Translations under genes and position numbers: made by a program
Shown here: positions 10,020 through 22,413 of the stretch, in pieces
Numbering within the stretch: the first letter of the stretch is position 1
Layout: every line of letters begins with the position of its first letter
Source of the DNA: Betaproteobacteria bacterium
Lineage (GTDB): Bacteria > Pseudomonadota > Gammaproteobacteria > Burkholderiales > Usitatibacteraceae
Assembly: GCA_019449455.1 (NCBI GenBank)
Contig: JAGRPO010000084.1
Location: 1-37,262, forward strand
Direction of reading: 5' to 3'
Length of the DNA: 37,262 nucleotides
Notes under the pieces: generated by a model
Told to the model about the DNA's origin: nothing
The model's database searches: none
What the model saw: the letters and a program-made list of their open reading frames with translations, nothing else

Positions 10020-10460
10020 ATGAGCAAACCCCGATCGCGCCATTACGCGCTCGTGCCCGCCGCCCAGGGCCGGATCCGCGCCGCCGGGCAGCGGCTGACC
10101 GCCCCGCGCGCCGCCGTCCTCGCCGTGCTCCTCGGCTCGGATTCGGCGCTCACCCACCACGAGGTGGAGGACGTCCTTCGCTCGGGGCCCGGCGTCGACC
10201 GGGTGACCGTCTACCGCGTGCTCGACTGGCTGGTCTCGCTCGGGCTCGCGCACCGCATCCCGGGCGAGGACCGCACCTGGCGTTTCCGCGCCAACCGCGG
10301 CGCCTCGCACGGCCCGCACGCGCACTTCACGTGCTCGAGGTGCGGCAGGACCGTCTGCCTGGACTCGGTGCGCGTGCCGCCGAGCGTGAAGCTGCCCAGG
10401 GGGTTCCAGACGCAGAAGGTCGAGCTCACCGTTCAGGGCCTGTGCGCGGCATGCCACTGA
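10020..10460 (+). CDS. Fur/Zur-family metal-responsive transcriptional repressor
   Basis: A 146-residue DNA-binding regulator. Residues about 15-85 form the winged-helix domain (QRLTAPRAAVLAVLL, then VDRVTVYRVLDWLVSLGLAHRI). The dimerisation and metal domain has the HGPHAHFTCSRCG segment with its CXXC, and a second CXXC at the very C-terminus (CAACH), giving a structural zinc site. Family members use Fe, Zn, Mn or peroxide as signals. Zur is favoured because the next two genes are COG0523 GTPases and the following ABC/DUF3299 genes belong to zinc-starvation operons in other proteobacteria. It leads a run of co-directional genes and would be expected to repress it when zinc is sufficient. The subtype is an inference. 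Confidence 0.82.
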   Translation: MSKPRSRHYALVPAAQGRIRAAGQRLTAPRAAVLAVLLGSDSALTHHEVEDVLRSGPGVDRVTVYRVLDWLVSLGLAHRIPGEDRTWRFRANRGASHGPHAHFTCSRCGRTVCLDSVRVPPSVKLPRGFQTQKVELTVQGLCAACH

Positions 10461-10491
10461 CCGCGCCGATCCGCGTCCGGCCGCCCTCCCG

Positions 10492-11514
10492 ATGACCGCG
10501 ACCTCCGTCACGCCGGTGACGCTGCTCACCGGCTTTCTCGGCAGCGGCAAGACGACGCTCCTCAACCGCCTGCTCGCGCATCCCGCGGCCGGCGACTGCG
10601 CCGTGATCGTGAACGAGTTCGGGCCGATCGCCATCGACCACGCGCTCGTGCGGACGGCCTCGGAGAACGTGGTGCTCCTGCCGAGCGGCTGCGTGTGCTG
10701 CCAGGTGGCGGGTGACCTCGTGCAGGCCATGCGCGACCTCTACTTCAAGCGGGCCGCCGGCGAGATCCCCGCGTTCCGGCGCGCGATCGTCGAGACGACC
10801 GGCCTCGCCGATCCCTCGCCCCTCGTGCGCACGCTCATCGAGCTGCCGCTGGTCGCCGCGCGCTATTCGCTTTCCGGCATCGTGACGACCGTGGACGGCC
10901 AGCACGGCATGGCGAGTCTCGACCGCCACCCGGAGGCCGTGAAGCAGGCCGCGGTGGCCGACCGGCTCGTGATCACCAAGGCGGACCTGGCGCCGGCAGG
11001 TGAGCTCGACGCCCTGGAGGCGCGGCTCGCGGCGCTCAACCCCGGCGCCCCGCGCCTGCGCAGCAGCCGCGGGGACGCGGACCCCGAGCGCCTGCTCGAC
11101 ACCGGCCTCCATCGGGGAGCCGGTCGCATCGCGGAGGCGGGATCCTGGCTCAATGCCGGCGCCTACCGCCGCGTGGGGGCCCCGATGCCCGCCGCCCACG
11201 ACCCGCGCGTGAGCGCCTTCGCCTGGTACGCCGGGCGCCCCGTCGACTGGCCGGCCTTCGAGGACGCTCTCGCAACCCTCCTCGAGATCGCGGGCGAGCG
11301 GATCCTGCGCCTGAAGGGCCTCGTCAACGTCGCCGGCGAGCCCGGCCCGGTCGCCGTGCACGCGGTCCAGCACACCCTCTACCCCCCCGCGCGCCTGCCG
11401 GCCTGGCCCGACGCCGACCGCCGCACCCGCCTCGTTTTCATCGTCCGCGACCTTGAAGAATCGTTCGTCGCCCAGACATTGGATTCTTTCGTCCTGGCTT
11501 CCGCCGAGAGGTAA
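10492..11514 (+). CDS. COG0523 (CobW/G3E-family) GTPase, putative metallochaperone 1
   Basis: A 340-residue GTPase with a P-loop at residues 14-22 (GFLGSGKTT), the COG0523 metal-binding GCVCCQV motif, an ETTGLADPSP switch segment, the guanine-specificity TKAD and a C-terminal CobW_C domain ending near FIVRDLEE. COG0523 proteins insert or deliver metals. Zur-controlled members such as ZigA/ZagA act in zinc allocation, while others serve cobalamin or nitrile hydratase. Placement 31 bases after a Fur/Zur regulator and 3 bases before a second COG0523 gene favours zinc. It has no obvious His-rich stretch, unlike its neighbour. The exact client is unknown. Confidence 0.86.
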   Translation: MTATSVTPVTLLTGFLGSGKTTLLNRLLAHPAAGDCAVIVNEFGPIAIDHALVRTASENVVLLPSGCVCCQVAGDLVQAMRDLYFKRAAGEIPAFRRAIVETTGLADPSPLVRTLIELPLVAARYSLSGIVTTVDGQHGMASLDRHPEAVKQAAVADRLVITKADLAPAGELDALEARLAALNPGAPRLRSSRGDADPERLLDTGLHRGAGRIAEAGSWLNAGAYRRVGAPMPAAHDPRVSAFAWYAGRPVDWPAFEDALATLLEIAGERILRLKGLVNVAGEPGPVAVHAVQHTLYPPARLPAWPDADRRTRLVFIVRDLEESFVAQTLDSFVLASAER

Positions 11515-11517
11515 CGA

Positions 11518-12513
11518 ATGGCCGCCGTCCCGAACCCCGACAAGGACCTCATCCCCGTCACGATCCTCACCGGATTCCTGGGCGCCGGGAAGACCACCCT
11601 CCTCAACCGCATCCTCACCGAGCAGCACGGCGAGAAGATCGCGGTGATCGAGAACGAGTTCGGCGAGACGGGGGTGGACAACGAGATCCTCGTGGAGGAC
11701 CGCGAGGAGACCATCGTCGAGATGAACAACGGCTGCCTGTGCTGCACCGTGCGCGGCGACCTGGTGCGCATCCTGGGCGATCTCGGCGAGAAGCGCAGGC
11801 AGGGCAAGCTGCGGTTCGACCGCGTGGTGATCGAGACCACGGGGCTCGCCAACCCGGGCCCGGTGGCGCAGACGTTCTTCATGGACGAGGGCATCCACGG
11901 CGAGTACCTGCTCGATGCCGTCATCACGGTCGTCGACGCGAAGCACGGCCAGCGGCAGCTCGACCTGCACGACGAGGCGCGCGCCCAGGTGGGATTCGCC
12001 GACCGCATCCTCCTGTCGAAGACGGATCTCGTCGCGGAGCCCGAAGTCGCCGACCTCATGGCGCGGCTGCGCGACATGAACCCGCGCGCCCACCAGAAGA
12101 AGGTCCATTTCGGCGAGACGGACATCCGCGAGATACTCGACATCCGCGGCTTCAACCTCAATGCCGCGCTGGAGATCGACCCGGGGTTCCTCACCGAGGG
12201 GCACCACCACCACGACGACGACGTGACGAGCTTCGTGTGGAAGGACCCGCGCCCCCTCCACATGGAGAAGATCGAGACCTTCCTGTCGCTCATGGTCCAG
12301 AACTACGGCGAGGACCTGCTGCGCTACAAGGGGGTCCTCAACATCCAGGGCGACCCGCGGCGGATGATCTTCCAGGGCGTGCACATGCTGATGGGCGGCA
12401 CGCCGGGCAAGCCCTGGGCGCCCGGCGAGACGCGGGAGAGCGTGATGGTGTTCATCGGACGCCGGATCCCGCGCCGCCTCTTCGAGGAAGGCCTCGCGTA
12501 CTGCGTGGCGTGA
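11518..12513 (+). CDS. COG0523 (CobW/G3E-family) GTPase, putative metallochaperone 2 with His-rich loop
   Basis: A 331-residue paralogue of the preceding gene, starting 3 bases after its stop. P-loop GFLGAGKTT, metal motif GCLCCTV, nucleotide-specificity SKTD, and a His/Asp-rich loop with GHHHHDDDV (around residue 227) between the GTPase and CobW_C domains. This loop is typical of zinc- or nickel-binding COG0523 members. The C-terminal domain ends with [10 protein letters not shown]. It resembles the YjiA/ZigA subgroups more than copy 1. The two copies differ clearly in sequence, so they are diverged paralogues with probably different clients or affinities rather than a recent duplication. 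Confidence 0.88.
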
Positions 12514-17939: not shown

Positions 17940-18788
17940 ATGAAACGCGTCCTCGCCGCGATCGCCGCCACGCTGGCCGGCTGCGCCTCCATGCCCGAGT
18001 CCTCTAGCCTACCCGACGCGCCCGCGTCCCTCGCCGCCGCCGAATCCGCCTTCGCCGCGCAGTCGGTCCGCGAAGGCATGCGCGCCGCATTCCTCGCCTG
18101 GCTGGCGCCCGAGGCCACGCTCTACCGCGGCGGGCCGGTCAACGGGCCCGCCGTCATTGCCGCGAATCCGGACCCGCCCATCGTCCTCGACTGGCGCCCC
18201 GCCTTTGTGGAAGTCGCGGCCTCCGGGGAGCTGGGACTGTCGACCGGGCCGTGGACGGTCACGAGCCGCCGGGACCCCGTCGCCGCGCCGCGCCACGGCC
18301 AGTTCGTGTCCGTGTGGAAGCGCGCTCGCGGTGGCCCGTGGCGCGTCCTCGTCGACCTGGGCATCTCGCATCCCGGCGCTCACCTCGCCGACGCTCCCCT
18401 GCTGGCGCGCGAGACCCCGGCACGGGATCCTGACCCGTCCGCGACCATCGGGCGCGCCGAGGCGCAGTTCGCCAGTCGCGCCGCGACGTCCGGCGATGCG
18501 GACGCCTACGCGGCGTGGACGTCGCCCTCCGTTCGCCTGTATCGCGATGGGCAAGCCCCATTCCTCGGCCGCCCGGCAGCCCTCGGCTCGCCGGCGGCGC
18601 GCGACGCACGCACCGCATGGACCGTCGAGGCGCACGAAACCAGCGCGTCCGGCGACTTCGGCTACGCGATCGGCCGGTACGGCCCGACGGGCAGCGCGAC
18701 GGCCGGCCACTACCTGCGCGTCTGGCGAAGGGAAGCGGACGGCTGGCGCATCGCGCTCGACGTCGTGAACGCCCTCCCGCAGCGGTAG
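17940..18788 (+). CDS. Lipoprotein with two tandem NTF2-like (SnoaL/DUF4440-type) domains
   Basis: A 282-residue protein with a short signal ending in the lipobox LAGC (Cys15), predicted to be a membrane-anchored lipoprotein. Two similar halves follow. Each opens with an AE(S/A)xFA helix, has a TLYR/RLYR block and a G(E/D)(L/F)G(L/Y) strand, and closes with (S/R)VW(K/R)R...W(R)(V/I)xxD, which is the strand pattern of DUF4440/SnoaL-like cone-shaped domains. These domains bind small ligands or act as enzymes in very diverse settings. No catalytic residues could be assigned, so the function is unknown. It is convergent with the bufferin operon, with 41 bases between stops, and is not obviously part of either neighbour. 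Confidence 0.65.
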   Translation: MKRVLAAIAATLAGCASMPESSSLPDAPASLAAAESAFAAQSVREGMRAAFLAWLAPEATLYRGGPVNGPAVIAANPDPPIVLDWRPAFVEVAASGELGLSTGPWTVTSRRDPVAAPRHGQFVSVWKRARGGPWRVLVDLGISHPGAHLADAPLLARETPARDPDPSATIGRAEAQFASRAATSGDADAYAAWTSPSVRLYRDGQAPFLGRPAALGSPAARDARTAWTVEAHETSASGDFGYAIGRYGPTGSATAGHYLRVWRREADGWRIALDVVNALPQR

Positions 18789-18829
18789 GTCACGGGCCCG
18801 AAACCGAGGCCGGAGCAGCGCGGCGTCGC

Positions 18830-19609
18830 TCAGGCCGGCACGCGATCGCCGGTGGAGAAGCCGCAAAGCATGCCGTGCAAGGCGAGCCGCTGGAGCATCG
18901 GGGTGAAATCCCATGCATCCGTGATGCCGGCGGCTTCCTCGAGCGCGAGGCCGCGCGCCACGGCGTCGACGAACGCCGCTTCCGGCGGCGCCAGGCGGGC
19001 AAGCAGCACGCGTTGCGCCTCGCGCCAGACGAGAACATCGTCGGCTCCATCCTCGCGATCGGGCGTCCCGTCGCGGTCCGGCTGGTTCGCTTCCCAGATG
19101 GAGAGCACCGGCCAGGCCGAGCGCACCAGGCGAACCGACGGATGCAGGAGCAACCGCAGGCCCGGCTGTTCGCCTTCAGGCACGCGCGAGAGCGCGGCGA
19201 AATCCATCCCGGGCGCATCCGCGGCGGCGAGCGATTCGTGCCAGGCCCATTCCAGCCTCGCGACGTCGGCGAGCCATGGCATCGCCGCCGCATGCGGATA
19301 CGCGGCGAGAAACGCCGCGAATGTCGCGCCGTAGCGGTTGAGGTCCGCGCCGCCCGGTGGGCATGCCTCCCCGTAGCGCAGCGCCGCCTCGTCGAAGAAC
19401 CCGTCGCCCACGAGCCGCGCCACGACCGGAAAAGCGGCACGCAGCGCGCGACGGCGGTTGGCGAGGATCGCGTTGCGGTAGATGGCCAGCCTGCGCAGCC
19501 CGGCGCCGGCATCGCCCGCGAGGTGCCGCGCGAACCCCGCGCCGTCCTCCCCCAGGACGGCGGCGGCGAACTGCGCCTGGAGCCGGGCGAGCCCTTCCGT
19601 GACCGTCAT
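18830..19609 (-). CDS. bufC: DUF2063 / HvfC-BufC family partner of the MNIO oxidase
   Basis: A 259-residue cytoplasmic protein. The N-terminal half is the DUF2063 (HvfC/BufC) domain, recognised by LRRLAIYRNAILANRRRALRAAFPVVARLVGDGFFDEAALRYGE and the following LADVARLEWAWHES block. The C-terminal half (from about residue 170) contains ANQPD and a helical tail ending GMLCGF. In described systems this protein associates with the DUF692 oxidase and binds the precursor leader, aiding modification. ATG 19609 overlaps the bufB stop (ATGA), so the two are translationally coupled. It is the last gene of the three-gene unit, and no DoxX-type bufD follows. Confidence 0.88.
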   Translation of the reverse strand: MTVTEGLARLQAQFAAAVLGEDGAGFARHLAGDAGAGLRRLAIYRNAILANRRRALRAAFPVVARLVGDGFFDEAALRYGEACPPGGADLNRYGATFAAFLAAYPHAAAMPWLADVARLEWAWHESLAAADAPGMDFAALSRVPEGEQPGLRLLLHPSVRLVRSAWPVLSIWEANQPDRDGTPDREDGADDVLVWREAQRVLLARLAPPEAAFVDAVARGLALEEAAGITDAWDFTPMLQRLALHGMLCGFSTGDRVPA

Positions 19610-20472
19610 GCCGCGGCCTTGCGGGAAGCCCGCTCGATGCTCGAGGCCAGGATCGCGTCGGCTTTCGCCGCCTCGGCGAGCAGGACGGCGAGTTCGGGAA
19701 TGTCGACGTCCCATTCGACGAGCGTGGGCACGGCTCCCAGGCGCGCGATCGCCTTCTCGAAGAGAGCCCAGACTTCGGGGAAGACGGGGGCGCCATGCGT
19801 GTCGACGAGGCCGTCGGCGGTCACCTCGCCGCCCGCGAGGTGGATCTCGCCCACCGTCGACGGATCGAGGGCGTCGATGAACCGCATCGCGTCGGTTCCG
19901 TGGTTCACCGAATTGATCCACGCATTGTTCACGTCGAGGAGCACCCCGCAACCGGTGCGACGGGCCACCTCGGCGACGAATTCGCCCTCGGGAATCGTGG
20001 AGGACGCGTAGCGGACGTACGCGCAGACGTTCTCGACCAGGATCTTGCGCCCGAGGCGTTCCTGCACCGAGGCGACCCGGTCGCACACATGGGCGAGCAC
20101 CTCCTCCGAATACGGCAGCGGCAGCAGCTCGCTCAGGTGCTCGCCGCCGATGCTCGACCAGCAGAGGTGCTCGGAAACCAGGGCCGGCTCGATGCGCCCG
20201 GCGAGCCGCGCCAGGCGCGCCAGGTGCTCGCGATCGATGGGGTCCGCCGAGCCCAGGGAGAGCCCCACCCCGTGGAGGCTCACCGCATGGTCCGCGCGGA
20301 AGCGCTCGAGCCAGGCGAGCGAAGGACCGCCGTCCGCGAAGTAGTTCTCGCTGTGGACTTCCAGGAACGAAAGCGCGGGCCGGCTGCGCGCCAGGGCCTC
20401 GAAGTGCGCGGTGCGCAGCCCGATCCCTGCCTTCCGCGGGTCCGGCGCGCGGGGCGGGAAACGCGCGGTCAC
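19606..20472 (-). CDS. bufB: MNIO (DUF692) multinuclear iron-dependent oxidase for RiPP modification
   Basis: A 288-residue TIM-barrel-type oxidase of the DUF692/MNIO family. Candidate metal or catalytic residues lie in conserved blocks: FLEVHSENYF (40-45), LHGVGLSLG (His67), SEHLCW (Glu101, His102), LVENVC (Glu147, Asn148), LDVNNAWIN (Asp180, Asn182, Asn183), IHLAGGE (His211), DTHGAPV (Asp224, His226) and VEWD (Glu253, Asp255). Known relatives (BufB, HvfB, MbnB, TglH) use an iron cluster and oxygen to remodel cysteines. BufB/HvfB make 5-thiooxazoles in DUF2282 precursors. It begins 12 bases after bufA and overlaps bufC. The family is certain, and the exact product chemistry is inferred from the DUF2282 precursor beside it. 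Confidence 0.93.
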   Translation of the reverse strand: MTARFPPRAPDPRKAGIGLRTAHFEALARSRPALSFLEVHSENYFADGGPSLAWLERFRADHAVSLHGVGLSLGSADPIDREHLARLARLAGRIEPALVSEHLCWSSIGGEHLSELLPLPYSEEVLAHVCDRVASVQERLGRKILVENVCAYVRYASSTIPEGEFVAEVARRTGCGVLLDVNNAWINSVNHGTDAMRFIDALDPSTVGEIHLAGGEVTADGLVDTHGAPVFPEVWALFEKAIARLGAVPTLVEWDVDIPELAVLLAEAAKADAILASSIERASRKAAA

Positions 20473-20484
20473 GGCAGGTCGCGG

Positions 20485-20763
20485 CTACTTGCCGCGAGGG
20501 GGATTCAGCTTGCCGCCCATCTTCGTGCACGTGCCCTTGGCGACGTATTTCCATTCGTCGGGCGCGTTGTCCTTCCTGGCGAGGCCCGCGCAGGCGTGCG
20601 TGGCGGTGCCGCAGTCGTTCTGGCCCGCCTTGGCGATGCCGTAGCACTTCTCCTTGCCGGCCGCCGGCTCTCCTTCGGCGGCGTTCGAGACCGCGACCTG
20701 GCCCAGGCCGATCGCGACCACGCCGGCCAGCGCCGAGCGGATGAGCGCTCGTTTCGGGTTCAT
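20485..20763 (-). CDS. bufA: Bufferin-type RiPP precursor (DUF2282)
   Basis: A 92-residue exported precursor. A basic start and hydrophobic segment (residues 1-29, ending SNAA) form a Sec-type signal peptide. The mature part carries four cysteines in the DUF2282 pattern: [15 protein letters not shown] (Cys40, Cys51), THACAG (Cys58) and GTCTKMGG (Cys79). In described bufferins/oxazolins (BufA1, HvfA), cysteines of this pattern are converted by the MNIO enzyme to thiooxazole or disulfide-linked forms that sequester copper in the periplasm. ATG 20763 is preceded by a strong AAAGGAGA ribosome-binding site (20769-20776), fitting an abundant small product. It heads the operon and is divergent from hsp20. 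Metal specificity here is inferred. Confidence 0.9.
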
Positions 20764-20852
20764 GGAAGTCTCCTTTGCGGGTGGGGGACGCGCGCGGCCG
20801 CTGGGGCCCCGGCAGGCGAGGAATGATACACCGGGGATCGGCCGGGCCAGCC

Positions 20853-20880
20853 CTTGAAATCCCCGCCGACGGCCAAAACT
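20853..20880 (+). promoter_or_regulatory. Possible sigma-32 promoter for hsp20
   Basis: CTTGAA (20853-20858), a 14-base spacer and CCAAAACT (20873-20880). The -35 matches the heat-shock consensus core well and the -10 only partly (about 5 of 7 informative positions against CCCCATNT). It sits 80 bases before the hsp20 ATG, in the 197-base divergent gap shared with bufA. Confidence 0.35.
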
Positions 20881-20914
20881 TGGAGTCATCGGGCGCCGAA
20901 CGCGCCCCCGTGGT

Positions 20915-20932
20915 CCCGGCCCCGAGGCCGGG
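20915..20932 (+). promoter_or_regulatory. GC-rich hairpin in the hsp20 5' untranslated region
   Basis: A perfect 7-bp stem (CCCGGCC with GGCCGGG) and 4-base loop CCGA, ending 18 bases before the GGAG ribosome-binding site at 20951-20954. It does not itself cover the Shine-Dalgarno sequence, so a thermosensor role is only a possibility. Confidence 0.35.
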
Positions 20933-20960
20933 GTTTCGAACCTAGCCCCTGGAGGCAAGA

Positions 20961-21386
20961 ATGAACCCGCTGCTGCGCTATGAACCCCTGTCCGGCCGCC
21001 TCGACGGCCTTTTCAACGACTTTCTCCGCCCGGCCCTCGTCTGGGAGGGCGGCTCCGAGCCCGCGCCCATCCGCGTCGACGTGAAGGAGACGCCCGCCGC
21101 CTACACCGTCCACGCGGAAATCGCGGGCGTGAAGAAGGAGGACATCCGTGTCGAGATCGAGGGCAACGAGGTCCTGATCAGCGCCGAGGTGAAACGCGAG
21201 AGCGAGAAGAAGGAGGGCGAAAGGGTGCTGCGCACCGAGCGCTTCTTCGGCAAGACCGCGCGTCGCTTCGCGCTGCCGCAGGAAATCGACGAGTCCAAGG
21301 CCGAGGCGAAGTACGCCGACGGCGTGCTCGAGCTCACGCTGCCCAAGAAGGCGGCGGTGGCCGGCCGTCGCGTCGCCATCCAGTAA
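20961..21386 (+). CDS. Small heat-shock protein Hsp20 family
   Basis: A 141-residue ATP-independent chaperone that holds unfolding proteins. After a 40-residue variable N-terminus, the alpha-crystallin domain runs from about residue 38 ([27 protein letters not shown]...) through [30 protein letters not shown] and [13 protein letters not shown] to the short C-terminal extension. It looks like the class commonly called Hsp20/IbpA-like in betaproteobacteria. A GGAG ribosome-binding site sits 6 bases before the ATG. It is a single-gene unit: a divergent gap with bufA upstream and a strong terminator downstream. Confidence 0.93.
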
Positions 21387-21402: not shown

Positions 21403-21438
21403 GGGGCTCCGGAGGCCTTGCCTCCCGGGCCCCTTTTT
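21403..21438 (+). terminator. Intrinsic terminator of hsp20
   Basis: A 13-bp stem with one mismatch and one G-T pair (21403-21415 with 21421-21433), 5-base loop CCTTG, and a run of five T at 21434-21438. It lies 17 bases after the hsp20 stop and separates it from argB. Confidence 0.88.
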
Positions 21439-21456
21439 ACTTGCGGGGGCGCCGCC

Positions 21457-21462
21457 TACAAT
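21457..21462 (+). promoter_or_regulatory. -10 element of the argB promoter
   Basis: TACAAT, one base from the sigma-70 -10 consensus, 42 bases before the argB ATG and just after the hsp20 terminator. No -35 with proper spacing is clear, because the T-run of the terminator lies where it should be. Confidence 0.4.
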
Positions 21463-21504
21463 AGCGGCCACCTCCCTCTCTCCCCTCCCGAGCCGCGCTC
21501 CCCC

Positions 21505-22413
21505 ATGCCCCCCAAGCTCTCCTCCGTGCAGAAGGCCGAAGTGCTCGTCGAAGCACTGCCCTACATCCAGCGCTTCTACGACAAGACGATCGTGATCAAG
21601 TACGGCGGCAACGCGATGACCGACGTCGCGCTGCAGGAGGATTTCGCCGAGGACATCGTGCTGCTCAAGCTCATCGGCATGAACCCGGTCGTCGTGCACG
21701 GCGCCGGCCCGCAGATCGGCGCGCTCCTGCAGAAGCTGGGCAAGCAGAGCGAGTTCATCCAGGGCATGCGCGTCACGGACGAGGAGACCCTCGACGTGGT
21801 GGAGATGGTGCTGGGCGGCCTCATCAACCAGGAGATCGTCACGCTCATCAACAAGGCCGGCGGCAAGGCGGTCGGGCTGACCGGCAAGGACGGCCACTTC
21901 ATCCACGCGCGCAAGCTCAAGGTGGCGAGCAAGGAGGACAAGAAGAAGAAGATCGACGTCGGCCTCGTGGGCGAGGTCGTGCGCATCGACCCGGAGATCA
22001 TCCAGCTCCTCGACCAGCGCGACTTCATCCCGGTGATCGCGCCCATCGGGGCCGACGACAAGGGCACCGCCTACAACATCAACGCCGACATCGCGGCCGG
22101 CAAGCTTGCCGTCACGCTCCAGGCCGAGAAGCTGATCCTGCTCACCAACACCACCGGCGTGCTCGACAAGGCCGGCAAGGTGATCACGGGGCTCAATGCG
22201 AAGAAGGTGAAGGAGATGATCGACGAGGGCACCATCTCGGGCGGGATGCTGCCCAAGGTGGAGTGCGCGCTCGACGCGGTGAAGAACGGCGTGAAGACGG
22301 CGCACATCATCGACGGGCGCGTCTCGCACGCCCTCCTGCTGGAAGTCCTCACGGCCGAGGGCGTCGGCACCCTCATCCGCGGCGCGTCGGCCAACCGGGC
22401 CGACCACCGCTAG
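21505..22413 (+). CDS. argB: Acetylglutamate kinase
   Basis: Phosphorylates N-acetylglutamate, the second step of the cyclic arginine pathway. The 302-residue product shows the amino-acid-kinase fold markers: an N-terminal [10 protein letters not shown] (Lys/Gly loop), [18 protein letters not shown], a Lys-rich stretch around residue 145 (KEDKKKKID), the [12 protein letters not shown] substrate block and [13 protein letters not shown]. The N-terminal helix before residue 25 resembles the arginine-sensitive hexameric enzymes, so feedback inhibition by arginine is plausible but not proven. It is a monocistronic gene between a terminator and the convergent clsB, whose stop is only 16 bases away. 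Confidence 0.96.

Follow-up and report, generated by a model that had tools for sequence, protein, structure and literature searches.

Described bufferin systems and the operon in the window

According to the available text of PMC12452194, Buf1 bufferins are encoded in the order bufA-bufB-bufC, with optional genes for a sigma factor, NrsF and DoxX, and may occur in several copies per genome. More than 24,000 MNIO-PME1 loci have been counted (PMC13097082, available text). Among the closest described systems are two Caulobacter operons, CC3254-CC3257 and CC2907-CC2905, with genes for DUF2282, DUF692 and DUF2063 proteins; in the excerpts of PMC3511200, one of them lies beside sigF-nrsF and includes a DoxX gene, and the other is described as three genes only. 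The oxazolin system hvfABC of Haemophilus influenzae also unites an MNIO and a DUF2063 partner; its precursor has a signal peptide, as the one in the window may have too. In the methanobactin system MbnABC, an MNIO enzyme likewise acts on cysteines, but its partner is MbnC, whereas that found here is a DUF2063 protein. As stated in the accessible part of PMC12452194, bufferin precursors carry Sec signals, whereas methanobactin precursors do not.

The window, i.e., the whole analyzed stretch of 37,262 nucleotides, originates from a probably uncultured betaproteobacterium. Frames and translations place bufA, bufB and bufC in this order on its minus strand, at 20763-18830 (Table 1). The bufA stop codon is separated from the GTG start of bufB by a gap of 12 nt, while the end of bufB and the start of bufC have an ATGA in common (19609-19606). 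Both the three consecutive genes and this overlap had been proposed in the initial annotation, and the coordinates and frames bear them out. Gene content and order are the same as in the two Caulobacter operons (PMC3511200, excerpts), and the precursor, the MNIO and the PME type 1 partner are as in the Buf1 bufferins and captophorins (DUF2282 group). The only difference found from the Buf1 family is that the cluster in the window lacks DoxX. This gene has been listed among the core genes of such clusters, although not as one present in every cluster (PMC12452194, available text), and Caulobacter CC2907-CC2905 is described without it as well (PMC3511200, excerpts), so DoxX does not appear to be required. 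Judged by its sequence, bufABC is a standard Buf1 bufferin operon belonging to a known, widespread family with thousands of members.

Table 1. Positions of the bufferin operon and its flanking features in the window
Feature	Position	Strand	Description
bufA	20485-20763	-	Buf1/DUF2282 bufferin precursor, 92 aa, Cys40/51/58/79
bufB	19606-20472	-	MNIO (DUF692) bufferin maturase, 288 aa, GTG start
bufC	18830-19609	-	DUF2063 + RRE-type partner protein (PME type 1), 259 aa
AAAGGAG	20770-20776	-	Ribosome-binding-site-like, from sequence; bufA ATG 6 nt downstream
TATCATT	20822-20828	-	Putative -10 element of the bufA promoter; conserved in 6/6 aligned genomes
Hsp20 gene	20961-21386	+	Pfam profile search; between bufA and argB
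argB	21418-22413 (frame)	+	Beyond the Hsp20 gene, bufA side
DUF4440 gene	17940-18788	+	Pfam profile search; bufC side; lipoprotein-like start by eye

Family membership, conservation and predicted maturation

Pfam profile searches placed all three gene products above the cut-offs of the families named for them in the initial annotation. The 92-residue BufA matches DUF2282 (PF10048; E-value, 4.5e-23; 81.4 bits; cut-off, 22.4) over profile positions 1-52 of 53, and BufB, which had been called a complete MNIO, covers positions 2-262 of 263 of PF05114 (E-value, 8.4e-102; 340.4 bits; cut-off, 25). The match of BufC to DUF2063 (PF09836; E-value, 8.3e-22; 77.7 bits; cut-off, 27.2) spans residues 10-101. 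With the NCBIfam models, BufB scores 358.9 bits against NF050167 (MNIO_BufB, "MNIO family bufferin maturase"; cut-off, 310). BufA and BufC stay below the BufA2 (31.4 vs. 60) and HvfC (41.1 vs. 142) cut-offs, so that only bufB receives an NCBIfam equivalog name. BufB, in turn, is below the cut-offs for HvfB (230.7 vs. 360) and MbnB (55 vs. 325). When aligned to solved MNIO structures, it matches 3BWW (E-value, 4.8e-38), the DUF692 chain of 8hci (2.6e-14) and MbnB (1.5e-7 and weaker).

The precursor of the hvfABC system, HvfA, has EGKCG repeats and forms a group separate from DUF2282 (PMC13097082, available text), whereas BufA has no such repeat. The precursor type and the NCBIfam cut-offs thus speak against an oxazolin identity, and the MbnB cut-off together with the precursor type against a methanobactin one; both were rejected. 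Accordingly, of the bufABC/hvfABC arrangement suggested in the initial annotation, the Buf1-type bufABC part stands on the sequence tests and the fold of BufC, while the likeness to hvfABC is loose.

Searches with the BufC sequence against solved structures retrieved no partner protein (three unrelated weak matches with the single query, none with the profile query), and its likeness to MNIO partners of solved structure was found by fold comparison only. The AlphaFold2 model of BufC, built from 42 sequences (pLDDT, 93.9; pTM, 0.90), has three PDB matches with E-values of at most 0.001, namely, 8hi7_A and 8hci_A (TglHI complex) and 3dee (NGO1945). The similarity is moderate (TM-score, 0.51-0.68; rmsd, 5.2-8.7; identity, 10-16%). 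As chain A of 8hi7 and 8hci is not the DUF692 chain, it was taken as TglI. In the available text of PMC12452194, NGO1945, with its DUF2063 and RRE-type domains, is presented as typical of MNIO partners, and TglI is the partner of TglH. Thus, in this confident model, the part of BufC outside the Pfam match is predicted to fold like known MNIO partners.

For comparison with related loci, 364 relatives of bufB were confirmed in one scan of genome contigs, and the best 80 were kept (L008-L087). Together with the window and the second copy from its own genome, these gave an MNIO alignment of 82 sequences; the precursor alignment (n = 80) took in 78 loci besides the window and the second copy. The four cysteines reported by the initial annotation in DUF2282 spacing are indeed those of the family: Cys51, Cys58 and Cys79 are each kept in 80/80 precursors and Cys40 in 79/80, where the exception is a fragment that lies at the end of a contig. 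Inspected by eye, the N-terminus of BufA is signal-like, with KR followed by a hydrophobic run and SNA-A. Far from the metal ligands of the enzyme being lost, 13 ligand-type His, Asp, Glu and Asn residues (H67, H102, E147, N148, D180, N182, N183, E209, H211, D224, H226, E253 and D255) are invariant in all 82 MNIOs. The DUF2282 match of BufA and these residues decide two of the refuting conditions named in the initial annotation in favor of its reading. By spacing and by alignment to 3BWW, D224/H226 and D255 appear to lie in motifs that match mutated positions of HvfB and FonB, a mapping of our own; the remaining invariant residues are presumably iron ligands. The HvfB variants N175A, D242A and H244A were inactive (PMC13419390, available text), and with FonB D249A the peptide stayed unmodified (PMC13097082, available text).

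Among these best 80 of the 364 relatives, every locus has the start of bufC no more than 300 nt from bufB, and bufA ends no more than 400 nt before bufB in 62. The DUF2282 gene of the other 18 is found downstream in 13 and elsewhere in three, and none lies within the sequence stretch examined in two. Several variants were also observed. In two genomes of the host's family, G017 and G018, the DUF2282 precursors (L108 from 1342 and L109 from 1387) carry additional residues after the Trp and ahead of the last Cys; their profile match ends at position 42 of 53, and an MNIO gene then follows. In nine genomes of the same family (G008, G010, G011, G015, G016 and G021-G024), pairs of DUF2282 genes lie ~285-410 bp apart, and tandem bufferin precursors have already been described (PMC12452194, available text). 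Lower-scoring MNIOs (196-210 bits) occur beside the usual ones (319-382 bits) in five members of this family, G001 (C210), G010 (C312), G011 (C5), G019 (C1) and G021 (C202).

Taken as a whole, the operon is very probably a complete Buf1 (DUF2282) bufferin operon whose modified, exported peptide binds surplus periplasmic copper. Modification, export, copper binding and stress protection would proceed by analogy with published bufferins and captophorins. BufA would be synthesized with a Sec signal peptide, and a cytoplasmic BufB-BufC complex (iron oxidase and RRE partner) would oxidize the central Cys51 and Cys58 to 5-thiooxazoles. Cys40 and Cys79 would later form a disulphide, and the exported peptide would sequester surplus copper in the periplasm. 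CC3254 of Caulobacter is, we presume, the published bufferin 1. MNIO chemistry is diverse (Table 1 of PMC12452194, available text), and BufB might place a modification other than 5-thiooxazole on BufA. This is highly improbable, given that bufB scores above the bufferin maturase cut-off and that the MNIO-DUF2063 pairs tested in the accessible part of PMC13097082 make 5-thiooxazole, the product also assigned to Caulobacter bufferin 1.

Chromosomal site, neighboring genes and the second operon

The DUF4440 gene on the bufC side of the operon is followed by hslU and hslV; the names argB, hslU and hslV in the window are presumed from the sequence rather than from a family search. The gene neighborhood was compared across L008-L035. 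All five of the closest relatives (L008-L012) carry the DUF4440 gene, hslU and hslV after bufC, and argB precedes bufA in all four whose contigs reach that far. Five of seven congeners keep a window-type operon at a single chromosomal location. The Hsp20 gene between bufA and argB is absent from the four close relatives that reach argB. In the more distant L013 (60% identity), an Hsp20 gene lies ~1.1 kb before tandem bufA genes and a DUF4440 gene follows bufC; therefore, an Hsp20 neighbor also occurs outside the window and may have a long history. Among the best 80 of the 364 relatives, the closest are labeled as Betaproteobacteria or Burkholderiales MAGs and one as Lysobacter, and these labels are the basis for the class assigned to the host. 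A plasmid search with BufB gave 352 matching records, all below 60% identity, and the plasmid collection searched thus contains no sign of recent mobility.

The role assigned to the operon in periplasmic copper buffering comes from the literature, and no copper gene was seen adjoining the operon. At positions 10020-12513, the window has a Fur-family gene and, after it, two genes of the CobW type (10492-11514 and 11518-12513), perhaps a zinc-homeostasis cluster. It could be taken to suggest that the operon is a genuine bufferin-type one that physiologically serves another metal instead of, or besides, copper (e.g., zinc, cadmium, chromate or mercury), the "besides" case of which overlaps with the copper-binding reading preferred here. 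Other metals are also indicated by the response to dichromate and cadmium of Caulobacter sigma-F, which controls two DUF2282-DUF692-DUF2063 operons (PMC3511200, excerpts), and by MerC fusions, which point to other metals for some bufferins (PMC12452194, available text). However, the Fur/CobW genes are 6-9 kb away, past hslVU, and the dichromate and cadmium sensitivity of Caulobacter lacking CC2906, CC3255 or both was not raised according to the excerpts of PMC3511200. Since copper sequestration is, moreover, the described role of bufferins (PMC12452194, available text), we consider a different or additional metal unlikely.

In the genome from which the window derives (3.48 Mb in 341 contigs, 99% complete), each of the MNIO, DUF2282 and DUF2063 families has two matches. 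The second Buf1 set is located on contig C301 (G000; L088, 4774-8050), where it is oriented divergently to genes encoding an ECF sigma factor and NrsF. With 51% identity between the two BufB proteins, the two sets do not stem from a recent duplication. The single DoxX gene of the genome is on contig C134; contig C301 ends within or just after bufC, and a DoxX gene adjacent to the second set could be missed.

In seven of the eight genomes of the genus, NrsF is on the same contig as DUF2282 and MNIO genes; the Pfam check for a sigma-factor gene beside NrsF covered the own genome. The window-type set is present in 6/8, five of the eight genomes being the sources of L008-L012. G007 (88% complete) has the NrsF-linked set only, and G003 (98% complete) has no match to MNIO or DUF2282, which indicates that the system is dispensable. 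With a second set of all three genes in the genome, its BufB 51% identical, the window operon could be a redundant, poorly expressed or decaying paralogue, the work being done by the sigma-F-linked operon on C301. We consider this very unlikely, since the three frames are intact with invariant key residues, and the operon is retained in six of the eight genomes, sits at a shared location in the window and five relatives, and has a conserved upstream element.

Upstream elements and control of the two operons

A GTAACC-N16-CGAAMT element is located upstream of the NrsF-linked bufA in 7/7 genomes of the genus. The own copy reads GTAACC-N16-CGAACT, and this is its single match in the whole own genome, with a spacing of 15-18 allowed. 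As the pattern was derived from the C301 site, the informative part is that it has no match elsewhere in the genome. This sigma-F-type motif comes from the second operon of the seven genus genomes rather than from the published Caulobacter letters. Both Caulobacter operons are sigma-F-dependent (PMC3511200, excerpts), whereas the element is found here at the NrsF-linked operon only.

Within 140 nt upstream of bufA in the window and in its five orthologues, the motif is absent, and the best matches are no better than those in most shuffles. The best one among window-type operons, in L010 (and its repeat L112), has three mismatches, a level reached by 12-14% of shuffles; the best one upstream of bufA in the window has six. 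With up to three mismatches and a spacing of 16, the window contains 19 matches (15.6 expected), none of which lies between bufA and the Hsp20 gene. No regulator gene is adjacent to the operon in the window.

The longest invariant run upstream of the bufA start codon is TATCATT, identical in 6/6 distinct aligned genomes (the window and L008-L012) and beginning 52-65 nt ahead of that codon. The relatives read TGC-TATCATT, resembling an extended -10 element, while the TG spacing differs in the window. TATCATT is present once in the window (0.19 expected) and in 18 of 100 shuffles; as the five relatives are close, it is suggestive of a promoter element, but is no proof. A scan of 18700-21100 found no sigma-70 promoter (0.1 expected), no -35 element and no terminator (1.3 expected). 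The repeat search of 18700-21000 returned nothing beyond stretches of 14-28 nt that were paired or present in two copies, with 70-93% likeness; these were not set against chance.

The window operon is apparently outside the control of the sigma-F-type factor whose gene adjoins the other operon. Given the different upstream elements, this lineage appears to possess two bufferin operons, one of the sigma-F type and one controlled separately, and the operon in the window may supply basal rather than stress-induced buffering. A more far-reaching proposal, which we put forward tentatively and rate at somewhat less than an even chance, is that the genus splits its bufferin production. One operon would be under the sigma-F/NrsF-type system, and the other, fixed between argB and hslVU, would be uncoupled from it and have its own conserved promoter, for constitutive or differently triggered buffering, possibly of another metal. 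This apparent split in control is the sole unusual feature of the system; no novelty is claimed for it, as the literature search was not aimed at it.

The bufABC operon is one more well-formed member of a large family already in print, and by itself leaves the understanding of bufferins unchanged. The comparison suggests that both common arrangements of the family, one next to a sigma-factor gene and one without it, can be present in the same genome and differ visibly in their upstream elements. On a small scale, this makes it possible to test how bacteria might share out basal and induced metal buffering.
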